From Candidatus Scalindua sp. (GTDB taxonomy: Bacteria > Planctomycetota > Brocadiia > Brocadiales > Scalinduaceae), in the NCBI GenBank assembly GCA_021776915.1, contig JAIQZU010000066.1:1-56019 (forward strand): DNA of 56,019 bases. Reading direction: 5' to 3'. Each line of letters opens with the position of its first letter. Position 1 is the first letter of the stretch. Below, piece by piece: positions 1 through 11,624 of this stretch. The notes beneath the pieces are model-generated. The model was given only the letters and a program-made list of their open reading frames with translations, was not told the origin of the DNA and did no database searches. The position numbers and the translations under genes were made by a program.

Positions 1-520
1 AGAGGGTAGGTCTACACTACAGAGGATTTTGGCGGATTTTAGGCTTTTTGAAAAAACCAGAACCTTTATTTACAAGTACTTACATTTTTGAAAACTTGAA
101 AATATTTTAAAATCAGGACCGAATTGCGAAAGTCGGGTTAGGTCATTTACCTATTTTTTGATGATGTTCAAATAGACAGGCACAAATATTGTTATACCTG
201 TAAGCCTATAGTGCCATTGGATATAATTGCATGATCAAAAGATAATAATCATATGGTATGCCTATTGCGAAAGTATAAATCAGTTCATCTTCATGAATTG
301 TAACTAAGTTGAGAAATGAGGTGAAAAAGGCATGCATGTCAATGATTACGATGTTGTTTATATTGTCAGCAGGAAAAGGAAAAAGGTGATAATATGTTGC
401 TTACAACGATATTTTGGATATCTATAGCAAGCGCACTTATTGCTATCTTTATTATAACACGATAGTTTCATTTGGAAGGAATTTTAGATTTTTTGTAAAT
501 TTTTTAGGAGGAAACATATT
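1..520. other. Leader region upstream of hydrazine synthase fusion
   Basis: No long gene is visible here. The stretch is AT-rich and holds two very short overlapping reading frames (332-427 and 394-465), the second with a ribosome-binding site. Immediately before the hydrazine synthase gene there is a strong AGGAGG at 506-511, nine bases from its ATG. I did not find a convincing -35/-10 pair. The length suggests a long untranslated leader or a partly transcribed upstream region. Confidence 0.5.
394..465 (+). CDS. Possible 23-residue single-span membrane peptide
   Basis: A short frame begins with ATG at 394, preceded by AAAAGGTGAT, a plausible ribosome-binding site. It encodes MLLTTIFWISIASALIAIFI followed by ITR, essentially one hydrophobic membrane span. 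It sits 55 bases upstream of the hydrazine synthase gene on the same strand. It could be a small accessory membrane peptide, a leader peptide or chance. I do not recognise a family. An overlapping frame from 332 (starting MHVNDYDVVYIVSRKRKK) reads into it in another phase and may be part of the same leader. Confidence 0.3.
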   Translation: MLLTTIFWISIASALIAIFIITR

Positions 521-2593
521 ATGAAGAAAAAGGGTTGGTTATTGGGTTTCTTGGGAGTTGGAATGTTAAGCCTGGCGTTGGCTCAAAGCGCCGGCGCCGG
601 CTTTATACAGGGCACAAGGGTAAGAACAGATAGCACTTCCCCATTCCACATTGCCGTTTCGCCTGATGGTGGAACGTTGGCTATAGCCAACCAGTCAGGC
701 CATAGCGTGACGTTTATTGATGCGAGGTCTAACAAGGTGACCGGAGAGGTGCCTGTTCAGGTTCAACCTGAAGCGTCTGTGTTTACACTGGACGGACGTA
801 CTTTATTTGTTTGTAACGCAGAGAGCGATACTGTATCAGTTATTGATGTAGGTAACAAGGCAGTTGTTAAAACAATAAAGGTTGGTGACTGGCCTTGTAG
901 CATCAAACTGTCAAAAGACGGGTCAAAGGCTTATGTATGTTGTTCTGGTAATATGTGGAATTCGGTTGACATAATTGATACTGCAATGAATAGCAAAATC
1001 GGTGAGATCAGAACAACTGATTACGGCCCAAGGGATATAGCTATTTCGCCTGACGGAAAAACTGCGGCAATATGCCTTGATACAACAGGTAAGATCAACA
1101 GGGGTGTTGATTTTGTAGATCTTGCATCAGGAAGGGTTATTGAGCACAGAAATATATATCAGAGTTGCAACCTTAGAGCGATTGAGTATACGCCTGATGG
1201 AGCATATGTACTTGTCACAATGGAACAGCCAAAGAACTGGCTGCCTGTATGTGAAGCAGAGAATGCACAGATATTCTCAAACAACCTTGCTGTTGTGGAG
1301 ACTAAGGCTGGTGGAAAGGTTGCATGCATGCCTTTGGATGAGCACAACAATTATGATGGTAATCCATACGGTGTGGCAGTTAGTCCGGACGGAAAGTATG
1401 TTTTTATTGGCATAAGAAGTATGCACAGGGTAACTGTCCTTGATCTGAACGCGTTGCTTGATATCGTTTCTTCAAGCACTCAGGAAGAGCTTGACGACAT
1501 GAAGAACGACCTGACATTGATGGTTGATTATCTGGTAAAAAGGGTAAATGTAGGCCTCGGACCAAGTTCAGTTGCTCTTTCACCGGATGGTAAGACTTGC
1601 TACGCTGCAAACTATTTCACAAATGATTTGTCAGTTATTAAGGCAGGTGATGACCCTTCGGTAATAGCAACAATACAGACAGGTCCTGAGTGGCGTCCGC
1701 TTGAAAGAGGAGAGCCGTTGACAGTTCCTGAAGTGCATTACAGGGTAAAACACTCTCCATACAAGAGTGAATTGGTCAGATATGGACAGTTCCAGTTTAA
1801 TGAAGCATCATGGACACTGCAGGGTGAGTATTCATGTGCAAGCTGTCACTATGAAAGAGGCCAAACTACTGGTGTGATCTGGGACCTTGGAGATGAAGGA
1901 TGGGGTAGTTGGAAGAACGCAAAGTATATCCGGGGTGGAAGGTATCTTCCTCCATTCAGGCATGAAGGATTCACGGGTCATCCTGATGAAATCGTAGGAG
2001 CTGCTTCGTCGATCGACAGGGTATGCGGACGTGATCCTGGATTTGTATTCAGAAGTGAGAACTTTTCACCTGAGAGATTAGAGGCATTGATTGCTTACAT
2101 CAGGTCTTTAGAGTTCACAGGAAGTCCTTTCAGAAATGAAGATGGTTCATTGACAGAAGCACAGAAGAGAGGCTGGAAAGTATTCAGTGATCCTAAGGTT
2201 GGATGTATTGAGTGCCATCCTGGCGATCCAAAGAATCCAAGGGCCTTATTCAGTGATGCGCAGACTCATGATGTTGGAACCGGAAGGATTGGTGTAAATG
2301 GTTTCAGGACTACACCCGGCGCAGTATATAACCAGGCAGCGTTGGAAGCAGGCGTGGACCCTTATGGTGAAGAGTACGATGTTCCAATTATCGGGCTTGA
2401 TCTTGTAAAAGAGTTTGATACGCCTACATTGAGAGATATTTACGCATCAGCTACATATTTCCATGATGGCAGTGCACAGACGTTGATGGCAACAATAGAC
2501 AATACAGCGACTACAGAGGATATGCATGGGGTTACATCACATCTGAGTAATCAAGAATTGCAGGATCTGGTTGAGTTTATGAAGGCTCTGTAA
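521..2593 (+). CDS. hzsBC: Hydrazine synthase, fused beta (propeller) and gamma (di-heme) subunits
   Basis: 690 residues. A signal peptide (cleavage near AGA-G, residue 26) sends the protein across the membrane. Residues about 30-390 form YVTN-type beta-propeller blades with repeated 'SPDG' turns (e.g. 46-50, 176-179, 288-291, 354-357). Residues about 405-690 resemble a cytochrome c peroxidase/MauG domain with two c-heme motifs, C439-ASC-H443 and C562-IEC-H566, and the late 'YFHDGSAQTL' segment holding a candidate axial His (H648). Kuenenia hydrazine synthase has separate beta (propeller) and gamma (MauG-like) subunits; I recall them as fused in Scalindua, and the length fits their sum. The enzyme makes hydrazine from NO and ammonium in the anammoxosome. 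The alpha subunit gene is not in this window. A strong Shine-Dalgarno and a terminator frame the gene as a single unit. A paralogous propeller-cytochrome is the alternative. Confidence 0.8.
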   Translation: MKKKGWLLGFLGVGMLSLALAQSAGAGFIQGTRVRTDSTSPFHIAVSPDGGTLAIANQSGHSVTFIDARSNKVTGEVPVQVQPEASVFTLDGRTLFVCNAESDTVSVIDVGNKAVVKTIKVGDWPCSIKLSKDGSKAYVCCSGNMWNSVDIIDTAMNSKIGEIRTTDYGPRDIAISPDGKTAAICLDTTGKINRGVDFVDLASGRVIEHRNIYQSCNLRAIEYTPDGAYVLVTMEQPKNWLPVCEAENAQIFSNNLAVVETKAGGKVACMPLDEHNNYDGNPYGVAVSPDGKYVFIGIRSMHRVTVLDLNALLDIVSSSTQEELDDMKNDLTLMVDYLVKRVNVGLGPSSVALSPDGKTCYAANYFTNDLSVIKAGDDPSVIATIQTGPEWRPLERGEPLTVPEVHYRVKHSPYKSELVRYGQFQFNEASWTLQGEYSCASCHYERGQTTGVIWDLGDEGWGSWKNAKYIRGGRYLPPFRHEGFTGHPDEIVGAASSIDRVCGRDPGFVFRSENFSPERLEALIAYIRSLEFTGSPFRNEDGSLTEAQKRGWKVFSDPKVGCIECHPGDPKNPRALFSDAQTHDVGTGRIGVNGFRTTPGAVYNQAALEAGVDPYGEEYDVPIIGLDLVKEFDTPTLRDIYASATYFHDGSAQTLMATIDNTATTEDMHGVTSHLSNQELQDLVEFMKAL

Positions 2594-2851: not shown

Positions 2852-3322
2852 AGAGTAAGTTGGAATGATGTACAGGATTTTATAAGAAAGTTGAATAATA
2901 AAACAAGCCTGAACTATCGACTGCCCACAGAAGCTGGGTGGGAATACGAGGCAAGGAGTGGAGAAAATAAAGAAACGTGGGCAGGTACAAATAATAAATC
3001 AGAGTTCAGAAGATATGCATGGTATTCTAGCGATAACTCAAGAGGTCAAACGCATCCAGTAGGCCAGAAAAAACCGAACGGTTTAGACCTGTACGACATG
3101 ATGGGCAATGTCTGGGAATGGTGTCTAGATTGGTATGGTGAAGATTATTATAAGAAAAGCCTTCGTAACAATCTAAAAGGTGAGTCTAGTGGTTCCTGCC
3201 GTGTTTATCTGGGCGGTAGCTGGTTCGATAAGTCGAGATACTTGCAAACATCTAATCGCTATGGAAACACTCCTGGTCACAGGAGTAGCAATTTAGGTTT
3301 TCGTCTTGCCATGACACCGTAA
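2852..3322 (+). pseudogene. 5'-truncated SUMF1/formylglycine-generating-enzyme-like fragment
   Basis: The open frame begins after a stop at 2849 and reads RVSWNDVQDFIRKLNNKT, then 'YRLPTEAGWEYEARSG', 'GLDLYDMMGNVWEWCLDWY' and 'GSWFDKSRYLQTSNR...GFRLA'. These are the middle and C-terminal signatures of the FGE-sulfatase (SUMF1) fold. Family members usually have about 100 more N-terminal residues before the 'VSWNDV' motif; none is found upstream in any frame I checked. The only start inside the frame is TTG at 2891 (143 residues), which would cut the fold. I therefore read it as a remnant of a secreted or regulatory SUMF1-domain protein. A short functional protein from 2891 is less likely. Confidence 0.65.
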
Positions 3323-3600: not shown

Positions 3601-4188
3601 ATGTTTTTTTTACGTTTTTGTACAACAGTTATTAGCTTGGTTATACTCGCCTTATTTTTAGCTTACTCTGGAACTCTCGACTATCCGTGTGTTCCCACTG
3701 CTAGGGCTGCAGATATGCTTGATTCGGATAAAGAGGTAGCTTCTCCCGATCCCCGCTTTACTGATAATAGTAACGGCACAATAACGGACAACCTTACTGG
3801 ATTGATATGGTTACAGAATGCCAATGTCGCGGGAGCGAGAAAGTGGGCAGATGCCCTGGCAGATGTGGAGAATCTGAATAGAGATGGAATGATGAACGGG
3901 ACTTTTACAGGTGATAAGAGCAACAGTGGCAGTCACCAAAAAGACTGGCGTCTGCCAGATAGGAATGAGTTAGTAAGCCTGACTGATTATAGGAACAACA
4001 ACCCTGCCCTTCCATCGAACTACTCTAACTTCTTTAGCGGCGTGCAGTCGGACAGCTACTGGTCGAGTGATACCCTTAAGGGTGGTATAGCCTATGCTTG
4101 GATCGTAACCTTGAGCGATTACGGTGTTATGGACACTGCCAATAAGACTGAAAAATGCTTTGTATGGCCTGTTCGTGCAGAAAAATAG
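3601..4188 (+). CDS. Secreted DUF1566 (Lcl C-terminal) domain protein
   Basis: 195 residues with a good ribosome-binding site (AAGGAGG about six bases before ATG). An N-terminal signal peptide ends near 'ARAAD' (about residue 37). The rest shows the DUF1566 pattern: 'PRFTDNSNGTITDNLTGLIWLQNAN', 'WRLPDRNELVSLTDY', 'YWSSDT...AYAWIV' and a C-terminal 'CFVWPVRA'. This domain is common in extracytoplasmic, often lipid-anchored or adhesin-like proteins of unknown biochemical role. It lies 3' of the SUMF1 fragment; both folds are related to C-type-lectin-like domains, so the two may come from one decaying surface-protein locus. Confidence 0.75.
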   Translation: MFFLRFCTTVISLVILALFLAYSGTLDYPCVPTARAADMLDSDKEVASPDPRFTDNSNGTITDNLTGLIWLQNANVAGARKWADALADVENLNRDGMMNGTFTGDKSNSGSHQKDWRLPDRNELVSLTDYRNNNPALPSNYSNFFSGVQSDSYWSSDTLKGGIAYAWIVTLSDYGVMDTANKTEKCFVWPVRAEK

Positions 4189-4565
4189 ATACTTTGTTGC
4201 TTTGCTTTGAACACATTTGATTCAGGTTCTGAAGCCTGAACTCAACTAATAAGTGCAAATCTCAAGAGTTGATAAGAAGGGTTCGCGGTAGTACAAGACC
4301 GCCTCACAAACTTGTCAATAGAAAGGGAGGTGTCCTTTGACCTTCGTAAATATTCACATCAGAATATCATTTCATAAAACTTATCAGTAGGAGGGGTAAC
4401 TTACTTTTTTTAATCCTTTAGGAGTCTAATATAAACTTCATTACTGTCAAGTAAGTACATCAAAACAGACCAAAACAGGGAGTAATCTAGATCATGGTCT
4501 GTTTGTTTACTGGCAGGTAAGCTGTACGCCGGGCATACGAATACATTAATTATTCAATCAAGGCA
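4189..4565. other. Intergenic stretch with small inverted repeats
   Basis: No gene is seen. It lies between the convergent ends of the DUF1566 gene and fprA. It contains a short hairpin around 4220-4240 related to the 'TTCAGG...CCTGAA' repeats seen elsewhere in the window, and a ten-base-pair stem at 4463-4504. Confidence 0.5.
4463..4504 (-). terminator. Possible terminator for the metV-fprA operon
   Basis: AAACAGACCA (4463-4472) pairs with TGGTCTGTTT (4495-4504) with a 22-base loop, about 60 bases beyond the fprA stop. Read on the minus strand the stem ends in TTTT and then loses its T-run, so it is a weak terminator candidate only. Confidence 0.3.
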
Positions 4566-5759
4566 TTAAATATCTGTTGCAAATTTTTTACCAAATTCTT
4601 CACACCCCTTCAGATCTTCTTCTGAAGGCACCATCCTTAACTTACACCCTTCAGCAACTATCTTGAAACGTAAACTCTTTAAGATGTCTTCAATTATCTG
4701 TACGGCTTCACCACTCCAGCCGTAACATCCAAAAACAGCCGCCGCCTTGCCCCTGATATTCAGTGTTACCAGGCTTGAAATAATATCAAATATTGGTTTT
4801 GGGGCCTTCGCATTCAGTGTAGGAGTCCCAAGGAGAATACCATCAGAGGCATCAATTTCGTCAATTATGGAGTCCATATCAGTTTCTGCAGCATTTAAAA
4901 GTGAAACATCTGTGTCGGGAAGGCACGCCCCTCTATAAATAGATTCTGCCATTTTTTGTGTGCTGCCGTATGATGAAACATATATGATCGTTATCTTTTT
5001 TTTGTCAGGATATTTCTTTGTCTTCCCTGACCATTCTCTGTAAGCATCAATATACTTGTCTAAATTTTCCCTCAGTATAGGACCATGGGAGGGAGCAATA
5101 ATTTCTATATCAATATCCTTTATATTGTTCAGGGCATCAATAACGTGTTTCTTGAAAGGTCTAAGTATGGTATCGTAGTAAAATTCATACGCAGTAAATG
5201 CATCTTCCCTGGAATCCAATTCATCGTTAAATCTTTTATCACTGCAATAATGTGAACCAAATGCATCACAGGGGAATAGTATCTTATCGGTTTCAAGGTA
5301 CGTAAACATAGTGTCAGGCCAATGGAGAAAAGGCGCAGATATAAATTTCAGTACCTTGCCGCCAAGATCAATACTGTCGCCCGCTTTCACCTCTTTGTAA
5401 TCAAATTCTTTGTGCAGAATATTCTTCACAAAAGTTCTGGCGCCTCTGGAAAATACTGGGATTGCCCTGGGCGCTAACTCCATCAATCTGATCAAACCGC
5501 CTGAATGATCCGGCTCCGTATGATTGATAATTATATAATCGATATCTTCCGGCCTGACTAACGATCTTATTTTTGAAATAAAGTCATCGACACAATATGA
5601 TTTTACCGTATCTATAACAGCTATCTTCTCACCGCGAACCAGATAGGAATTATAAGTTGTACCGTGCTTTGTAGGTATCACAATATCAAATGTTACGAGA
5701 CCCGGATCCAATGCACCTATCCAATAAACGCCTTCCTTAATCTTTACTGGTTGACCCAT
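4566..5759 (-). CDS. fprA: Flavodiiron protein (A-type flavoprotein)
   Basis: 397 residues, the normal length for the two-domain flavodiiron family. Residues 1-250 are a beta-lactamase-like domain with the di-iron motif H80-x-E-x-D-H ('NHTEPDHSGG') plus later ligands in 'FLHWPDTMFTY', 'PCDAF' and 'APSHGPIL'. Residues about 255-397 are a flavodoxin domain beginning 'IIYVSSYGSTQKMAESIY' (FMN phosphate loop). These cytoplasmic enzymes reduce O2 to water or NO to N2O using a rubredoxin or F420-type donor. In an anaerobe handling NO, either detoxification role fits. The ATG follows the metV stop directly, and its ribosome-binding site (GGAGAAGGAA) lies inside the end of metV, so the two are translationally coupled. 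Confidence 0.9.
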   Translation of the reverse strand: MGQPVKIKEGVYWIGALDPGLVTFDIVIPTKHGTTYNSYLVRGEKIAVIDTVKSYCVDDFISKIRSLVRPEDIDYIIINHTEPDHSGGLIRLMELAPRAIPVFSRGARTFVKNILHKEFDYKEVKAGDSIDLGGKVLKFISAPFLHWPDTMFTYLETDKILFPCDAFGSHYCSDKRFNDELDSREDAFTAYEFYYDTILRPFKKHVIDALNNIKDIDIEIIAPSHGPILRENLDKYIDAYREWSGKTKKYPDKKKITIIYVSSYGSTQKMAESIYRGACLPDTDVSLLNAAETDMDSIIDEIDASDGILLGTPTLNAKAPKPIFDIISSLVTLNIRGKAAAVFGCYGWSGEAVQIIEDILKSLRFKIVAEGCKLRMVPSEEDLKGCEEFGKKFATDI

Positions 5760-6437
5760 CTATTCCTTCTCCATTTGAAGATGTTTGATTTCTAATTTAC
5801 GTGGAGAACTGCCTGTACTTACAGACCAATTTTTCGGCGGCCTGATATCGTCCATGTAATGCAACATCTGCTGTTTATCAAGCTGGGCATATATTTGACT
5901 CCATACACATGGTATATCTTCCGACACTTCACAGTTACCGCCCATTGATCCTCCACACGGACCGTTAAGCAAACTTTTCGAACACCTGCTTACAGGGCAA
6001 AAACCGCCTGTTTTATCAAGCACACAGTCTCCACAACCTGCACATCTTTCTAAAAACAGTCCCGGTTCTACGGGCGCTCCCATGAAGGTGGTATTAAGTC
6101 CGGGAACTACTCTGACCGGCGTATATCTCTCTGCTAATGTCTGCACTCCCACACCACAGGCAATAGAAACTACCGCATCATAATCATTAACATAATTACC
6201 TACCGGCTCTACATATTCCTGTTCACACTGTCTTAATACAGTCTCTTCCTTTATCTCAAGCTCCCGGCCATCTCTTTTTGCCGCAATGCGTAATTTTAAT
6301 GCAAGCTCTTCTACCTGCTTCTGGCCGCCTGTATGACATACAGTTACACAATCTCCACAGCCGATTATACAAATCTTACTGAAGTCTTTAACCAATTCAT
6401 ATATTTCTTTAAATGGTTTTGACTCAGCTACTATCAT
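5760..6437 (-). CDS. metV: MetV-like zinc/Fe-S protein of methylene-THF reductase
   Basis: 225 residues. It matches the MetV family (methylenetetrahydrofolate reductase C-terminal, MTHFR_C): 'CIIGCGDCVTVCHTGGQKQVEELA' near the N-terminus, then a cysteine-rich segment 'CAGCGDCVLDKTGGFCPVSRCSKSLLNGPCGGSMGGNCEV' (quoted here as a motif; Cys spacing 2,2,8,4,8). In acetogens MetV pairs with MetF in the methyl branch of the Wood-Ljungdahl pathway, which anammox bacteria use for CO2 fixation. No metF is adjacent; the partner in the operon is fprA. The start ATG at 6435-6437 is preceded by AGGGAGA. Confidence 0.85.
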   Translation of the reverse strand: MIVAESKPFKEIYELVKDFSKICIIGCGDCVTVCHTGGQKQVEELALKLRIAAKRDGRELEIKEETVLRQCEQEYVEPVGNYVNDYDAVVSIACGVGVQTLAERYTPVRVVPGLNTTFMGAPVEPGLFLERCAGCGDCVLDKTGGFCPVSRCSKSLLNGPCGGSMGGNCEVSEDIPCVWSQIYAQLDKQQMLHYMDDIRPPKNWSVSTGSSPRKLEIKHLQMEKE

Positions 6438-8453: not shown

Positions 8454-11400
8454 CTACAATATACTCACGTATATCAGGGCAAAGACGGCAAAAACAGTAA
8501 AGTAACAGGCAATAGTAGCCTTTGTTACGATGTGTCTTGTTTTCTTCGATGTCAGATAGAAAACATAAATACTTCCAATAAACCCCGCAAAAATAAATAA
8601 TAGCTCAAGCGCTGAAATATCCCATACTTTATTATTTATAAGAACTTCATGCCCTGTTGATTTGTAAATATTAGTTATTTCCAGTAACATCCAGAAACTT
8701 GCCTTAAGTTTATCCCAGTAAAAGGCGAGATGTCCCATAAGCGCAAGTGGAATTGCTGCATACCCAAAATCAGCAATCCTCTTTTTCGCATTTTCAAACA
8801 AAAACCCGCTGAAGATATAATCAAGAGATCCAATCAAAACAAATGGAATTGCAGATACAAAGATGAAAATTAATGTATAAAGTACAGTTTGATTGATTCC
8901 GGTAAAGTTGTATAAAGATTGAAATGACACTGAATCTATACTAAGAAGGCTTCTGTACTCTACCAAAAGTATACCTAATAATGATAACGAAAGGAATGAA
9001 TCAGCCAGAGATCTATTAGACAATTCGGCTATGTCACTTCCCGGTACCTGAAGATTGACTTTTATTGAACCGTGGCTACAATTCTTGTAACAGTTCATAC
9101 ACAAAACACAGTCTCTACCACTTTCCAACCCATAAGGGTGTAAAAACATCGGGCAGCCTTTTATCAGCCTCGTCCCCAGATAACAATCATGAGTCTCACA
9201 CTGATTCAGACATACACTTCTATTTGCCTTTAAGGAAGTTAATGATGAAAGAGAATAAGCTCCAAGCAAACCACCGAGCGGGCAAACGTATCTACACCAC
9301 ACTCTCCTTTCATAAAGAAGACCGGAAATAACCGCACCGGAAAGAATAGAGATGATCAAAAATGCCGTTAGTATTGATGACCGTGGCATTATGGTCACAC
9401 CTTCCAGCCAGAATATTAAGAGGATCATCCCAATAGTGATATATCTCCCGTATACAACAAATACATCTGGAATTTTAAGATTAAAACATTTTAAACGTTG
9501 CATCCAATCACCTGCCGCAGCAAAAGGACAGACTCCGCATAAAGATCTTCCAGATATCAGGGTTATTAAGTACATACCAAATAAGCCGGTAGACCATAGG
9601 AATACATTTGCAAAATTCAAGAGACCATCTTTACGCCCCATGAATAACATGCAAAGTATAATTATGAGAAATGCAAAGCTCAGGATTTGAATTCCTTGTG
9701 GATAATATTTACTTTCTAAGAATCCCTTAATTGCATTCACTGAAAGAATATTAAAAGACCATTTCTTTTCTCCCCTTGGCATCCCAAAAAATAACTGTTC
9801 AGACGTTATAGTATTACCTTTTGCAAGAAAAACGGCTCGTCTTATAACATTCTCAAGCTCAATTACATTTCCAGGCCAATCATAACTCATCAATCTTCCC
9901 ATCGCATCGTCAGTCACATTTTTCACATCTTTGTGTAATTCCCTGCTGCACTTCTCAAGTAAGTGTTTTGAAAGCATTGGGATACTGCGTTTCTGATTTC
10001 TAAGAGCCTTCAATTGATAAAAATTCTTACCTAAAATATTATAAAGATTCTTATCAAACTTACCCTGTTCAACAGATAAGGCAATACCCTCAGACACAGA
10101 TGCCACAATCCTGGCGTTCGAGAAAACTTTATCGCTTCCATTGACACGATTAAATTCTCCCTCCTGTATGTAATTTAATAATTTGATTTGATTCGCTTGA
10201 TTTAAACTATCCACATGATCCAGAAAAATCGTGCCGGAATCAGCTAATTCGATATATCCCAGACGTGTCGCAACATCCTCTATCTCAACACCTTTACCAA
10301 GAGAGGAGATTTCTTGTTTATCTTTCCCCATTGCATCATCGCAACTTATTACATAAGTGCTCTTTTCATATCCAAAAAGCTCTTCTCCCCATGAATCATT
10401 GTCAATGTCTCTACAATCAACTTCTACAAAAGGCCCTTTGGAACGTTTACCTTTATAATGAATGATTTTTGACATCGGTATCTTGCCTGTCCCATCTTCA
10501 CCGTTTATTAATACTGGTTCGTCAATTAAAACCATAGAATCAACGAAAGCATTTATTTTATCGATATATTTGCCTCTGCCCACAAAGCCTAAACTTTTAA
10601 CATCCTTTTCACCACTCTCTCTTTCTGAAATCTGCACCCTTTTTTTAAGTCGTGCGTATGAAATTGCAAGGGCAATATGGTTTGCCAGTATAGTCAGTCC
10701 CCTGATATCGTCGTATGCGTATTTTCTTTTATCAATAGTCTGGATATTAATTGCGCCAATTAAATCTTTTTTAGTGCCTAATGGCACCGATAGTAGTGAT
10801 GACAAACGCTCTTCATGGACTTCAGAAAAGAATTTCACCCTTGGGTCGGCGTGTACATCTTCAAGCGCTGCGGGTTCACCATACCTGACTACCCATCCGG
10901 TAATTCCTTCATCTAATCGCATTTTTATTTTCTTTATTGTCTTACTATCAAATCCGACAGCCGCTTCTAATACTAGATTGTTAGAGACTGAATCAAGTAA
11001 GAAAATTGAACAGGCATCTGCCTTCATTTCTTCATTAACTTCTTTAACAACCATAGATAAAATTTTACTGATGTCTTCATCCAGATGAAAAAGCTTGGTT
11101 ACTCTATTTATTACGTCCAGTTTTCTCTCTTTCTCAATCTTATCTTCAAGTTCCTCAACTATCTTAATCTTTTCCTTCTCAAAAAAATCAAAGAATGTTT
11201 TCATTCTCATAGAGATAACCCTGCTTAGATAAATGCTCAAGACAGGATTTTTCTGAATCAGCTCTTGTATATCGTTTTTGTAAAGAACAAGGAGCTCAAC
11301 ATCTTCTTTTACTTTTATGGTTGCAAGGTATGGTTCATCAGTTAGCAGGGAGATAGTTCCAAAGCAGCCCCCTTCTCTGAGAATTGCTACAGTAATTTCC

Positions 11401-11624
11401 TCTCCGCCGCTATCAGTTAAAGTTTCTACTACAGATCCGGTATGAATTATAAATAAGCAGTTACCCTTCTGTCCTCTTTCGCAAATAGTCTGTCCTGTCC
11501 CATAATGTTGGACCTGTAGCTTTGAAACAATCTTTTTTAAAAGATTATTAGACAACAGGGAAAAAGGTTCGTAACCCTTTAAAAAATCTCTTTTTTGTTT
11601 GAAAAAACTGGTATCTTCTGTCAT
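8454..11624 (-). CDS. cNMP-GAF-degenerate sigma54 AAA+-polyferredoxin membrane fusion protein
   Basis: 1056 residues. In order: cyclic-nucleotide-binding domain (about 20-135), short coiled coil, GAF (about 180-330), an NtrC-like AAA+ domain (about 345-615) and a membrane region (about 640-1056) with about ten spans and iron-sulfur motifs. The AAA+ part keeps a Walker-A-like 'GEDGTGK' and the 'YDWPGNVIELENVIRRAV' segment. However, the sigma54-contact loop GAFTGA is replaced ('GYEKSTYVIS'), the Walker-B Glu is His ('TIFLDHVD'), and no C-terminal HTH exists. The membrane part has NapH/NosR-like 'CGVCP', 'CRYVCPLGG' and a 4Fe-4S motif 'CVLCMNCYKNC'. It is thus unlikely to activate sigma54 promoters. 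It looks like a signal-gated electron-transfer or redox-sensing membrane protein. Transcribed alone. Confidence 0.85.
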   Translation of the reverse strand: MTEDTSFFKQKRDFLKGYEPFSLLSNNLLKKIVSKLQVQHYGTGQTICERGQKGNCLFIIHTGSVVETLTDSGGEEITVAILREGGCFGTISLLTDEPYLATIKVKEDVELLVLYKNDIQELIQKNPVLSIYLSRVISMRMKTFFDFFEKEKIKIVEELEDKIEKERKLDVINRVTKLFHLDEDISKILSMVVKEVNEEMKADACSIFLLDSVSNNLVLEAAVGFDSKTIKKIKMRLDEGITGWVVRYGEPAALEDVHADPRVKFFSEVHEERLSSLLSVPLGTKKDLIGAINIQTIDKRKYAYDDIRGLTILANHIALAISYARLKKRVQISERESGEKDVKSLGFVGRGKYIDKINAFVDSMVLIDEPVLINGEDGTGKIPMSKIIHYKGKRSKGPFVEVDCRDIDNDSWGEELFGYEKSTYVISCDDAMGKDKQEISSLGKGVEIEDVATRLGYIELADSGTIFLDHVDSLNQANQIKLLNYIQEGEFNRVNGSDKVFSNARIVASVSEGIALSVEQGKFDKNLYNILGKNFYQLKALRNQKRSIPMLSKHLLEKCSRELHKDVKNVTDDAMGRLMSYDWPGNVIELENVIRRAVFLAKGNTITSEQLFFGMPRGEKKWSFNILSVNAIKGFLESKYYPQGIQILSFAFLIIILCMLFMGRKDGLLNFANVFLWSTGLFGMYLITLISGRSLCGVCPFAAAGDWMQRLKCFNLKIPDVFVVYGRYITIGMILLIFWLEGVTIMPRSSILTAFLIISILSGAVISGLLYERRVWCRYVCPLGGLLGAYSLSSLTSLKANRSVCLNQCETHDCYLGTRLIKGCPMFLHPYGLESGRDCVLCMNCYKNCSHGSIKVNLQVPGSDIAELSNRSLADSFLSLSLLGILLVEYRSLLSIDSVSFQSLYNFTGINQTVLYTLIFIFVSAIPFVLIGSLDYIFSGFLFENAKKRIADFGYAAIPLALMGHLAFYWDKLKASFWMLLEITNIYKSTGHEVLINNKVWDISALELLFIFAGFIGSIYVFYLTSKKTRHIVTKATIACYFTVFAVFALIYVSIL

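Follow-up and report, generated by a model that had tools for sequence, protein, structure and literature searches.

The contig of Candidatus Scalindua sp. described here carries hzsBC, a gene for a fused hydrazine synthase beta-gamma subunit, and this gene is an additional copy beside a canonical hzsBC-hzsA operon in the same genome. From its sequence and surroundings we consider it, with somewhat more confidence than doubt, to be an intact and selected surplus copy at a second locus that lacks the alpha gene, from which beta-gamma chains would be supplied in trans to a shared alpha subunit. Hydrazine synthase, the signature enzyme of anammox, has two half-reactions: the conversion of NO to hydroxylamine, assigned to gamma, and the condensation with ammonia, assigned to alpha. 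Most of the closely checked anammox genomes carry one spare hzsC or hzsBC without an alpha partner.

The window, that is the whole stretch of 56,019 nucleotides that was analysed, is the entire contig C63 of a genome of 3.79 Mb in 89 contigs (~95% complete, 3.6% contamination). Across the 17 Scalinduaceae genomes that were compared, two main types of site hold hzs genes. Locus II, the main operon, has the order cytb-RR2-p198-hzsB/C-hzsA-hao. Locus I, the second locus, consists of a Cache-PAS histidine kinase (HK1), an NtrC-type regulator (RR1) and hzsB and/or hzsC, usually without hzsA.

The fused gene and its surroundings

The features around the gene are the following.

1-141, +: repeat end, 141 bp identical to the start of contig C61; only from 138 on is there homology to locus I, and relatives have the regulator gene upstream
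138-532, +: promoter region, homologous with that of the second hzs locus (86.7% identical in genome G010, where hzsC alone lies downstream)
254-270, +: sigma54-type -24/-12 site tGGtatgcctattGCga, at an aligned position shared with other second-locus copies
521-2593, +: hzsBC, fused beta-gamma subunit of 690 aa, extra alpha-less copy (open reading frame, profile and PDB matches)
521-598, +: predicted signal peptide, residues 1-26 (by eye; mature Kuenenia beta aligns from residue 27)
599-1651, +: beta part, propeller domain (PDB and profile matches)
1652-2590, +: gamma part, di-haem MauG/CCP-like domain (PDB and profile matches, motif)
1835-1849, +: CASCH motif of haem gamma-I, with C439, C442 and H443 (alignment; numbering per PMC12607021)
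2024-2026, +: C502, equivalent to Kuenenia gamma Cys165, third covalent link of haem gamma-I (alignment; PMC12758564, PMC12607021)
2033-2035, +: D505, equivalent to Kuenenia gamma Asp168 (alignment; PMC12758564, PMC12607021)
2204-2218, +: CIECH motif of haem gamma-II, with C562, C565 and H566, the last equivalent to His229 (alignment; PMC12607021)
2525-2527, +: H669, equivalent to Kuenenia His332, second axial ligand of haem gamma-II (alignment; PMC12607021)
2603-2632, +: hairpin past the stop codon (folding); the main operon has one at the same spot, in the gap between hzsBC and hzsA
2702-2744, +: intrinsic terminator with an 11-bp stem and a T tract (folding, dG -20.2 kcal/mol, z -5.9)
2891-3322, +: truncated SUMF1/FGE-sulfatase-like ORF, probably unrelated (profile positions 108-254 of 255)
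3601-4188, +: protein with an Lcl_C domain, a neighbour that marks both second-locus and solo-hzsC loci (seen in G002, G011, Brocadia pituitae, Brocadia WS118)
4566-5759, -: flavodiiron protein of the NO/O2 reductase family, convergent; also beside the solo hzsC of G010 and G006
5760-6437, -: methylene-tetrahydrofolate reductase (MTHFR) C-terminal domain protein, flavodiiron partner (domain and neighbour comparison)

The gene is a single unbroken open reading frame. Its product matched NF052342, the NCBIfam model of the beta-gamma fusion, over residues 1-690 of 690 with 1579.9 bits against a cut-off of 1250, and both halves lay above the curated cut-offs of the beta and gamma equivalog models. 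In a PDB comparison, residues 27-376 matched the Kuenenia beta chain 5c2v_B (E 2e-157) and residues 378-690 the gamma chain 5c2v_C (E 3e-186), with an identity of about 61-85% to the solved or Kuenenia chains. The first-pass annotation had read the gene as a secreted HzsB propeller fused to di-haem HzsC and had taken the fusion for a Scalindua trait; the profiles and chain matches bear out the former, and published work the latter (PMC3655542, PMC4290996). The best matches are hydrazine synthase (HZS) subunits and not unrelated YVTN-cytochromes, which the annotation had named as one of two outcomes that would overturn it; the other, an alignment lacking the haem-ligand residues of gamma, did not arise either. 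All ten haem and active-site residues of gamma, numbered as in Kuenenia gamma according to PMC12607021 and PMC12758564, are present in the alignment (two CxxCH motifs, the third Cys and the equivalents of Asp168, Glu122 and His332), and the same residues are invariant in every compared copy with complete sequence, all solo copies included. Secretion and c-haem attachment are predicted for the window protein.

The reading frame, ribosome-binding region, promoter and terminator of the window hzsBC are intact, and comparison of the gene with its nearest relatives gives a dN/dS of 0.08-0.19. The idea that the alpha-less copy evolves faster was considered and set aside: a raw gamma-half dN/dS of 0.10 vs 0.025 had hinted at relaxed constraint, but relative-rate tests of the window copy against operon copies gave no significant difference.

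The gene's own terminator, already proposed in the first-pass annotation, was recovered as the hairpin and T tract at 2702-2744, which is absent from the list of a simple terminator scan of the window. In the main operon, the gap between hzsBC and hzsA contains a strong hairpin (z -6.3 in this genome and -3.3 in G005; L005 529-655, L052 10689-10815), and this hairpin could be a cause of unequal hzsBC and hzsA transcript levels.

Upstream, window 138-532 also has recognisable similarity to the sequence preceding locus I in G002, G011 and G013. The sigma54-type site of the locus-I copies lies 225-234 bases past the regulator gene. Sites with the score of tGGtatgcctattGCga number 13 in 112 kb of window strand; single sites are common, conservation of their position is not. 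Homology to locus I begins where the contig-end repeat stops, and a search of this genome for the HK1-RR1 pair returned just 40-44% paralogues of RR1 and 25-40% paralogues of the kinase. The simplest reading is that the repeat was inserted, or recombined, between RR1 and the promoter; the pair may have been lost from the genome or may lie beyond the repeat. The stretch 1-141 looks like the terminus of a repeated element, which may be a mobile one. Between the sigma54-type site and hzsBC, a 23-codon hydrophobic micro-ORF, MLLTTIFWISIASALIAIFIITR, lies at 395-466 (+); in an alignment inspected by eye, several substitutions separate it from a counterpart in the same frame in G010, and G002 has a short hydrophobic ORF resembling it.

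Downstream, the flavodiiron and MTHFR C-terminal-domain genes (4566-6437, -) form a pair that occurs together in 15 of the 17 family genomes. Flavodiiron proteins have been implicated in oxygen scavenging in Scalindua (PMC13253579). Further on, 8454-11624 (-) encodes a protein of 1056 aa that by eye seems to have a cyclic-nucleotide-binding/GAF/sigma54-activator-like front and, fused to it, a membrane part with cysteine clusters typical of 4Fe-4S ferredoxins.

The canonical operon on two other contigs

No hzsA was found on the window contig, and a search of the genome, as the first-pass annotation had suggested, located the sole hzsA on contig C19. The annotation's statement that no hzsA lies nearby stands for the 53 kb downstream, which is what the absence covers; the upstream view ends 520 bp before the gene, where the contig begins. 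A second hzsBC copy is present in the genome in two parts: residues 1-165 lie at the extreme end of contig C9 (90% identical to the window copy) and residues 515-690 (176 aa) at the extreme start of C19 (93% identical). On C9 the partial gene is preceded by cytochrome b, RR2 and p198, and on C19 hzsA starts ~120 bp past the hzsBC stop and is followed by hao, which is the order of the main operon in all relatives. We infer that the break between C9 and C19, which are unjoined contigs, is an assembly gap of ~1 kb inside one hzsBC-hzsA operon. The protein difference of 7-10% between the window and operon copies shows a duplication and not an assembly echo; at the DNA level the two differ by ~12% in the gamma part. 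Residues particular to the window protein include E392R, L452V, T467A, F603Y and G644A. The window gene does not itself belong to a canonical hzsB-hzsC-hzsA operon: hzsA does not follow directly downstream on the contig, and the upstream sequence matches locus I and not the cytochrome b, RR2 and p198 genes.

The first-pass annotation had concluded that the key enzyme is expressed from split loci, with only hzsBC here, hzsA elsewhere and the two balanced in trans. The window without hzsA is in line with that, and in S. profunda hzsBC and hzsA also have distant locus numbers (PMC3655542). The claim fails on the second hzsBC, which stands directly before hzsA between main-operon flanks and is interrupted solely by a contig gap; unless C9 and C19 were misbinned this refutes it, and we give it next to no credence. 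An assembly or binning artefact, in which C63 would come from a second Scalindua strain in the bin, is very improbable. The bin does have some contamination and C63 does start in a repeat, but the contig holds the genome's sole orthologous flavodiiron gene, which is found once in nearly every relative (the other match is a 46% paralogue), and the gamma part groups with the second-locus copy of G010 and with no main-operon copy.

The second locus in Scalinduaceae and surplus hzsC in Brocadiaceae

The window gene is assigned to locus I on account of its upstream homology, the position of its sigma54-type site, its Lcl_C and flavodiiron neighbours and the clustering of its gamma part with the locus-I gamma of G010 (support 95/92); the lack of hzsA agrees with this. 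Lcl_C follows on the 3' side as in G002 and G011, and the flavodiiron gene comes next as in G010 and G006. Strict orthology of all locus-I copies was rejected, their labels forming no single clade in the gene tree. The hzs copies are homogenised within lineages, and with locus-I labels scattered in the tree the identity of the locus rests on its flanks.

On continuous DNA, locus I lacks hzsA in the window, G002, G010 and G015 (Ca. Scalindua sediminis), the exception being G011. The order is HK1-RR1-hzsB-hzsC-LclC in G002, HK1-RR1-hzsB-hzsB-hzsC in G015, and HK1-RR1-hzsC alone, then the flavodiiron gene, in G010. G011 has RR1-hzsBC-hzsA; on another of its contigs (G011:C171, L141 ~3686-4464) the end of hzsA is followed by a decayed hzsC remnant, a second locus-I promoter region and an Lcl_C gene, as if two units had formerly stood in tandem. 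Locus I is interrupted by contig ends in G012 and G013, and the second copy of G006 has an in-frame stop. G005 has HK1-RR1 without hzs genes and a near-identical solo hzsBC at a separate place. This extra hzsBC (L051 10301-14231, G005:C34) is 99.5% identical to the operon copy and directly follows a gene for a 608-aa multihaem cytochrome, at a location unrelated to locus I. In S. rubra and other members of the family hzsB and hzsC are unfused.

In Scalinduaceae the usual ratio is two hzsC to one hzsA (G000, G002, G005, G006, G010, G015, G016); the count for G002 requires reading through a frameshifted main operon, and some of the second copies are contig-end fragments. The surplus is not a universal rule: G001, G003 and G007 have one hzs set only, G037 (20 contigs) has two of each gene, and one copy was reported for oxygen-deficient-zone Scalindua (PMC11104535). 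The main hzs operon of G002, Scalindua sp. RBC_AMX3 (L067, G002:C26), contains many frameshifts resembling uncorrected assembly errors, and the second copy, on C22, is free of them; an automatic pipeline would annotate this main operon as a pseudogene. Decay of its hzsBC beside a selected hzsA was dropped as evidence for supply in trans, since the intact pieces alternate between frames, as assembly indels would leave them.

A search across the order covered 62 genomes. Each of the six Brocadiaceae genomes that are closed or nearly so (1-4 contigs; Brocadia pituitae G031, G033, G043, G045, Kuenenia MBR1 G048 and G050) has three hzsC and two hzsA, one of the two hzsA of G045 being frame-broken. 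In G031, G033, G043, G045 and G050 the third hzsC stands alone, without hzsB or hzsA, behind its own kinase and NtrC-type regulator; in Kuenenia it is part of an hzsB-hzsC copy. The solo pattern also occurs in the more fragmented genomes of Jettenia ecosi, Loosdrechtia, Brocadia WS118 and G038. A sigma54-type site lies ~175-355 bp before the start codon of the solo hzsC (six scanned loci with the full upstream region), and the solo gamma of Brocadiaceae has its own predicted N-terminal export sequence. Solo and operon gamma genes differ at 1 of 936 nt in G050, 6 in B. pituitae, 16 in J. ecosi and 39 in G045, which points to exchange between the copies; the Kuenenia MBR1 copy is identical to the full operon in both hzsB and hzsC. 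The close similarity of the extra copy is a frequent cause of breaks at hzs genes in short-read anammox assemblies.

In the regulator tree, the locus-I regulators of Scalindua group with those of Brocadiaceae locus I, which holds a full second operon (90/91), and the solo-hzsC regulator is a sister lineage. Descent of Scalindua locus I from the solo-hzsC locus is disfavoured by this tree, though not rejected (AU p 0.107).

Role, origin and known systems

Under the favoured reading, supply in trans to a shared alpha, the sigma54-type promoter would make extra beta-gamma chains when its signal is present. The chains would be exported, each loaded with two c-haems, and would join alpha chains made by the hzsBC-hzsA operon, and beta-gamma supply could be raised independently of alpha. 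We count in its favour the second hzsBC and hzsA in the genome, the identity of the locus, selection, the kept residues and recurrence in relatives. Solo copies kept almost identical to operon copies (0-6 of 936 nt in B. pituitae, G050 and Kuenenia MBR1) suit interchangeable subunits, but gene conversion can keep copies near-identical without functional need. Counted against it, too, are the regulator pair not found in this genome and the Scalinduaceae with a single copy (G001, G003, G007 and the oxygen-deficient-zone Scalindua). Published expression data are mixed. In S. profunda the relative mRNA coverage was threefold higher for hzsBC than for hzsA (68.2 vs 22.8), and emPAI went the opposite way (HzsBC 3.5, HzsA 5.4), with reads unable to separate the two copies (PMC3655542). 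In Kuenenia under ammonium limitation all hzsB and hzsC copies went up and only one hzsA, for which the authors caution about read-mapping ambiguity (PMC7438415).

It is rather unlikely that the window gene is plainly redundant, that is, a duplicate kept by gene conversion or dosage, without regulatory or structural role and decaying in some lineages. The reduction to hzsC in G010, the in-frame stop in G006 and the hzsC remnant in G011 would suit such a fate, as would the recent copy of G005 at an unrelated place, and for Kuenenia the published explanation is gene dose (PMC5854607). Against redundancy, a locus with a sigma54-type promoter and a dedicated two-component system recurs in two families, and the window copy is under purifying selection.

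Unlikely to a higher degree, judged from sequence, is an enzyme independent of alpha, in which free beta-gamma (or gamma), controlled by a signal-responsive system of its own, would reduce NO to hydroxylamine and thereby relieve nitrosative stress or supply hydroxylamine. Haem gamma-I binds NO and is the proposed site of this conversion (PMC12607021), its residues are invariant in all solo copies, and gamma stands wholly alone, with an export sequence of its own, in Brocadiaceae; a gene of the flavodiiron NO/O2 reductase family adjoins in the window, G010 and G006. On the other hand, neither rate acceleration nor altered residues mark a new function, solo and operon gamma are near-identical in several genomes, and in genomes where the flavodiiron gene lies away from hzs it is still paired with the MTHFR gene, so that the adjacency is not general. 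The broader proposal, that the anammox order keeps one more gamma or beta-gamma gene than alpha under sigma54 two-component control as an alpha-free inducible NO-to-hydroxylamine reductase, seems to us at least as doubtful.

As for the origin of the locus, our hypothesis is that recombination between tandem hzsC copies would delete the intervening hzsA and leave an alpha-less hzsBC. It draws on locus I of G011, which keeps hzsBC-hzsA followed by an hzsC remnant, and on Kuenenia, where hzsB-hzsC lies 7 kb from a full operon.

A locus for a surplus gamma-bearing subunit is a direct handle on whether the two half-reactions of hydrazine synthase uncouple, and the gamma-only locus of Brocadiaceae makes alpha-independent activity testable. 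Copy numbers and transcripts of hzsB and hzsC are no proxies for hzsA.

Already published are the fusion in S. profunda (2013), the duplication of hzsBC in S. brodae (2015) and, for Kuenenia, a copy lacking alpha (2018). A search of the open-access literature turned up no description of a surplus gamma or beta-gamma locus that is conserved and under separate regulation, an absence that is weak evidence. The HzsBC of Scalindua profunda (scal00025) has the same beta-gamma fusion architecture as the window gene (PMC3655542), and in S. brodae the fused hzsBC is likewise duplicated (PMC4290996). The genomic places of those copies are unresolved, whereas the window copy is placed at a distinct, alpha-less locus with its own promoter and terminator. 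The partial cluster KSMBR1_2704, 2703 of Kuenenia stuttgartiensis MBR1 is an extra hzsB-hzsC without hzsA beside two full operons (PMC5854607), as seen here; its two genes are separate, stand in tandem 7 kb from a full operon and match the hzsB and hzsC of that operon exactly, whereas the window copy is fused and ~7-10% diverged from the operon copy. For Ca. Scalindua sediminis two HZS operons have been published (PMC7768721); our analysis finds one hzsA only, the second cluster being without it. That cluster stands behind the same kinase-regulator pair as locus I, and differs from the window in being unfused with hzsB doubled. The solo hzsC locus identified here in Brocadia, Jettenia, Loosdrechtia and others resembles the window's type of locus in its surplus gamma without hzsA and its sigma54-type promoter, and shares with Scalindua locus I the upstream NtrC-type regulator and histidine kinase and, in some genomes, Lcl_C downstream. 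Unlike the window gene it has no beta part, and its regulator belongs to a sister lineage.
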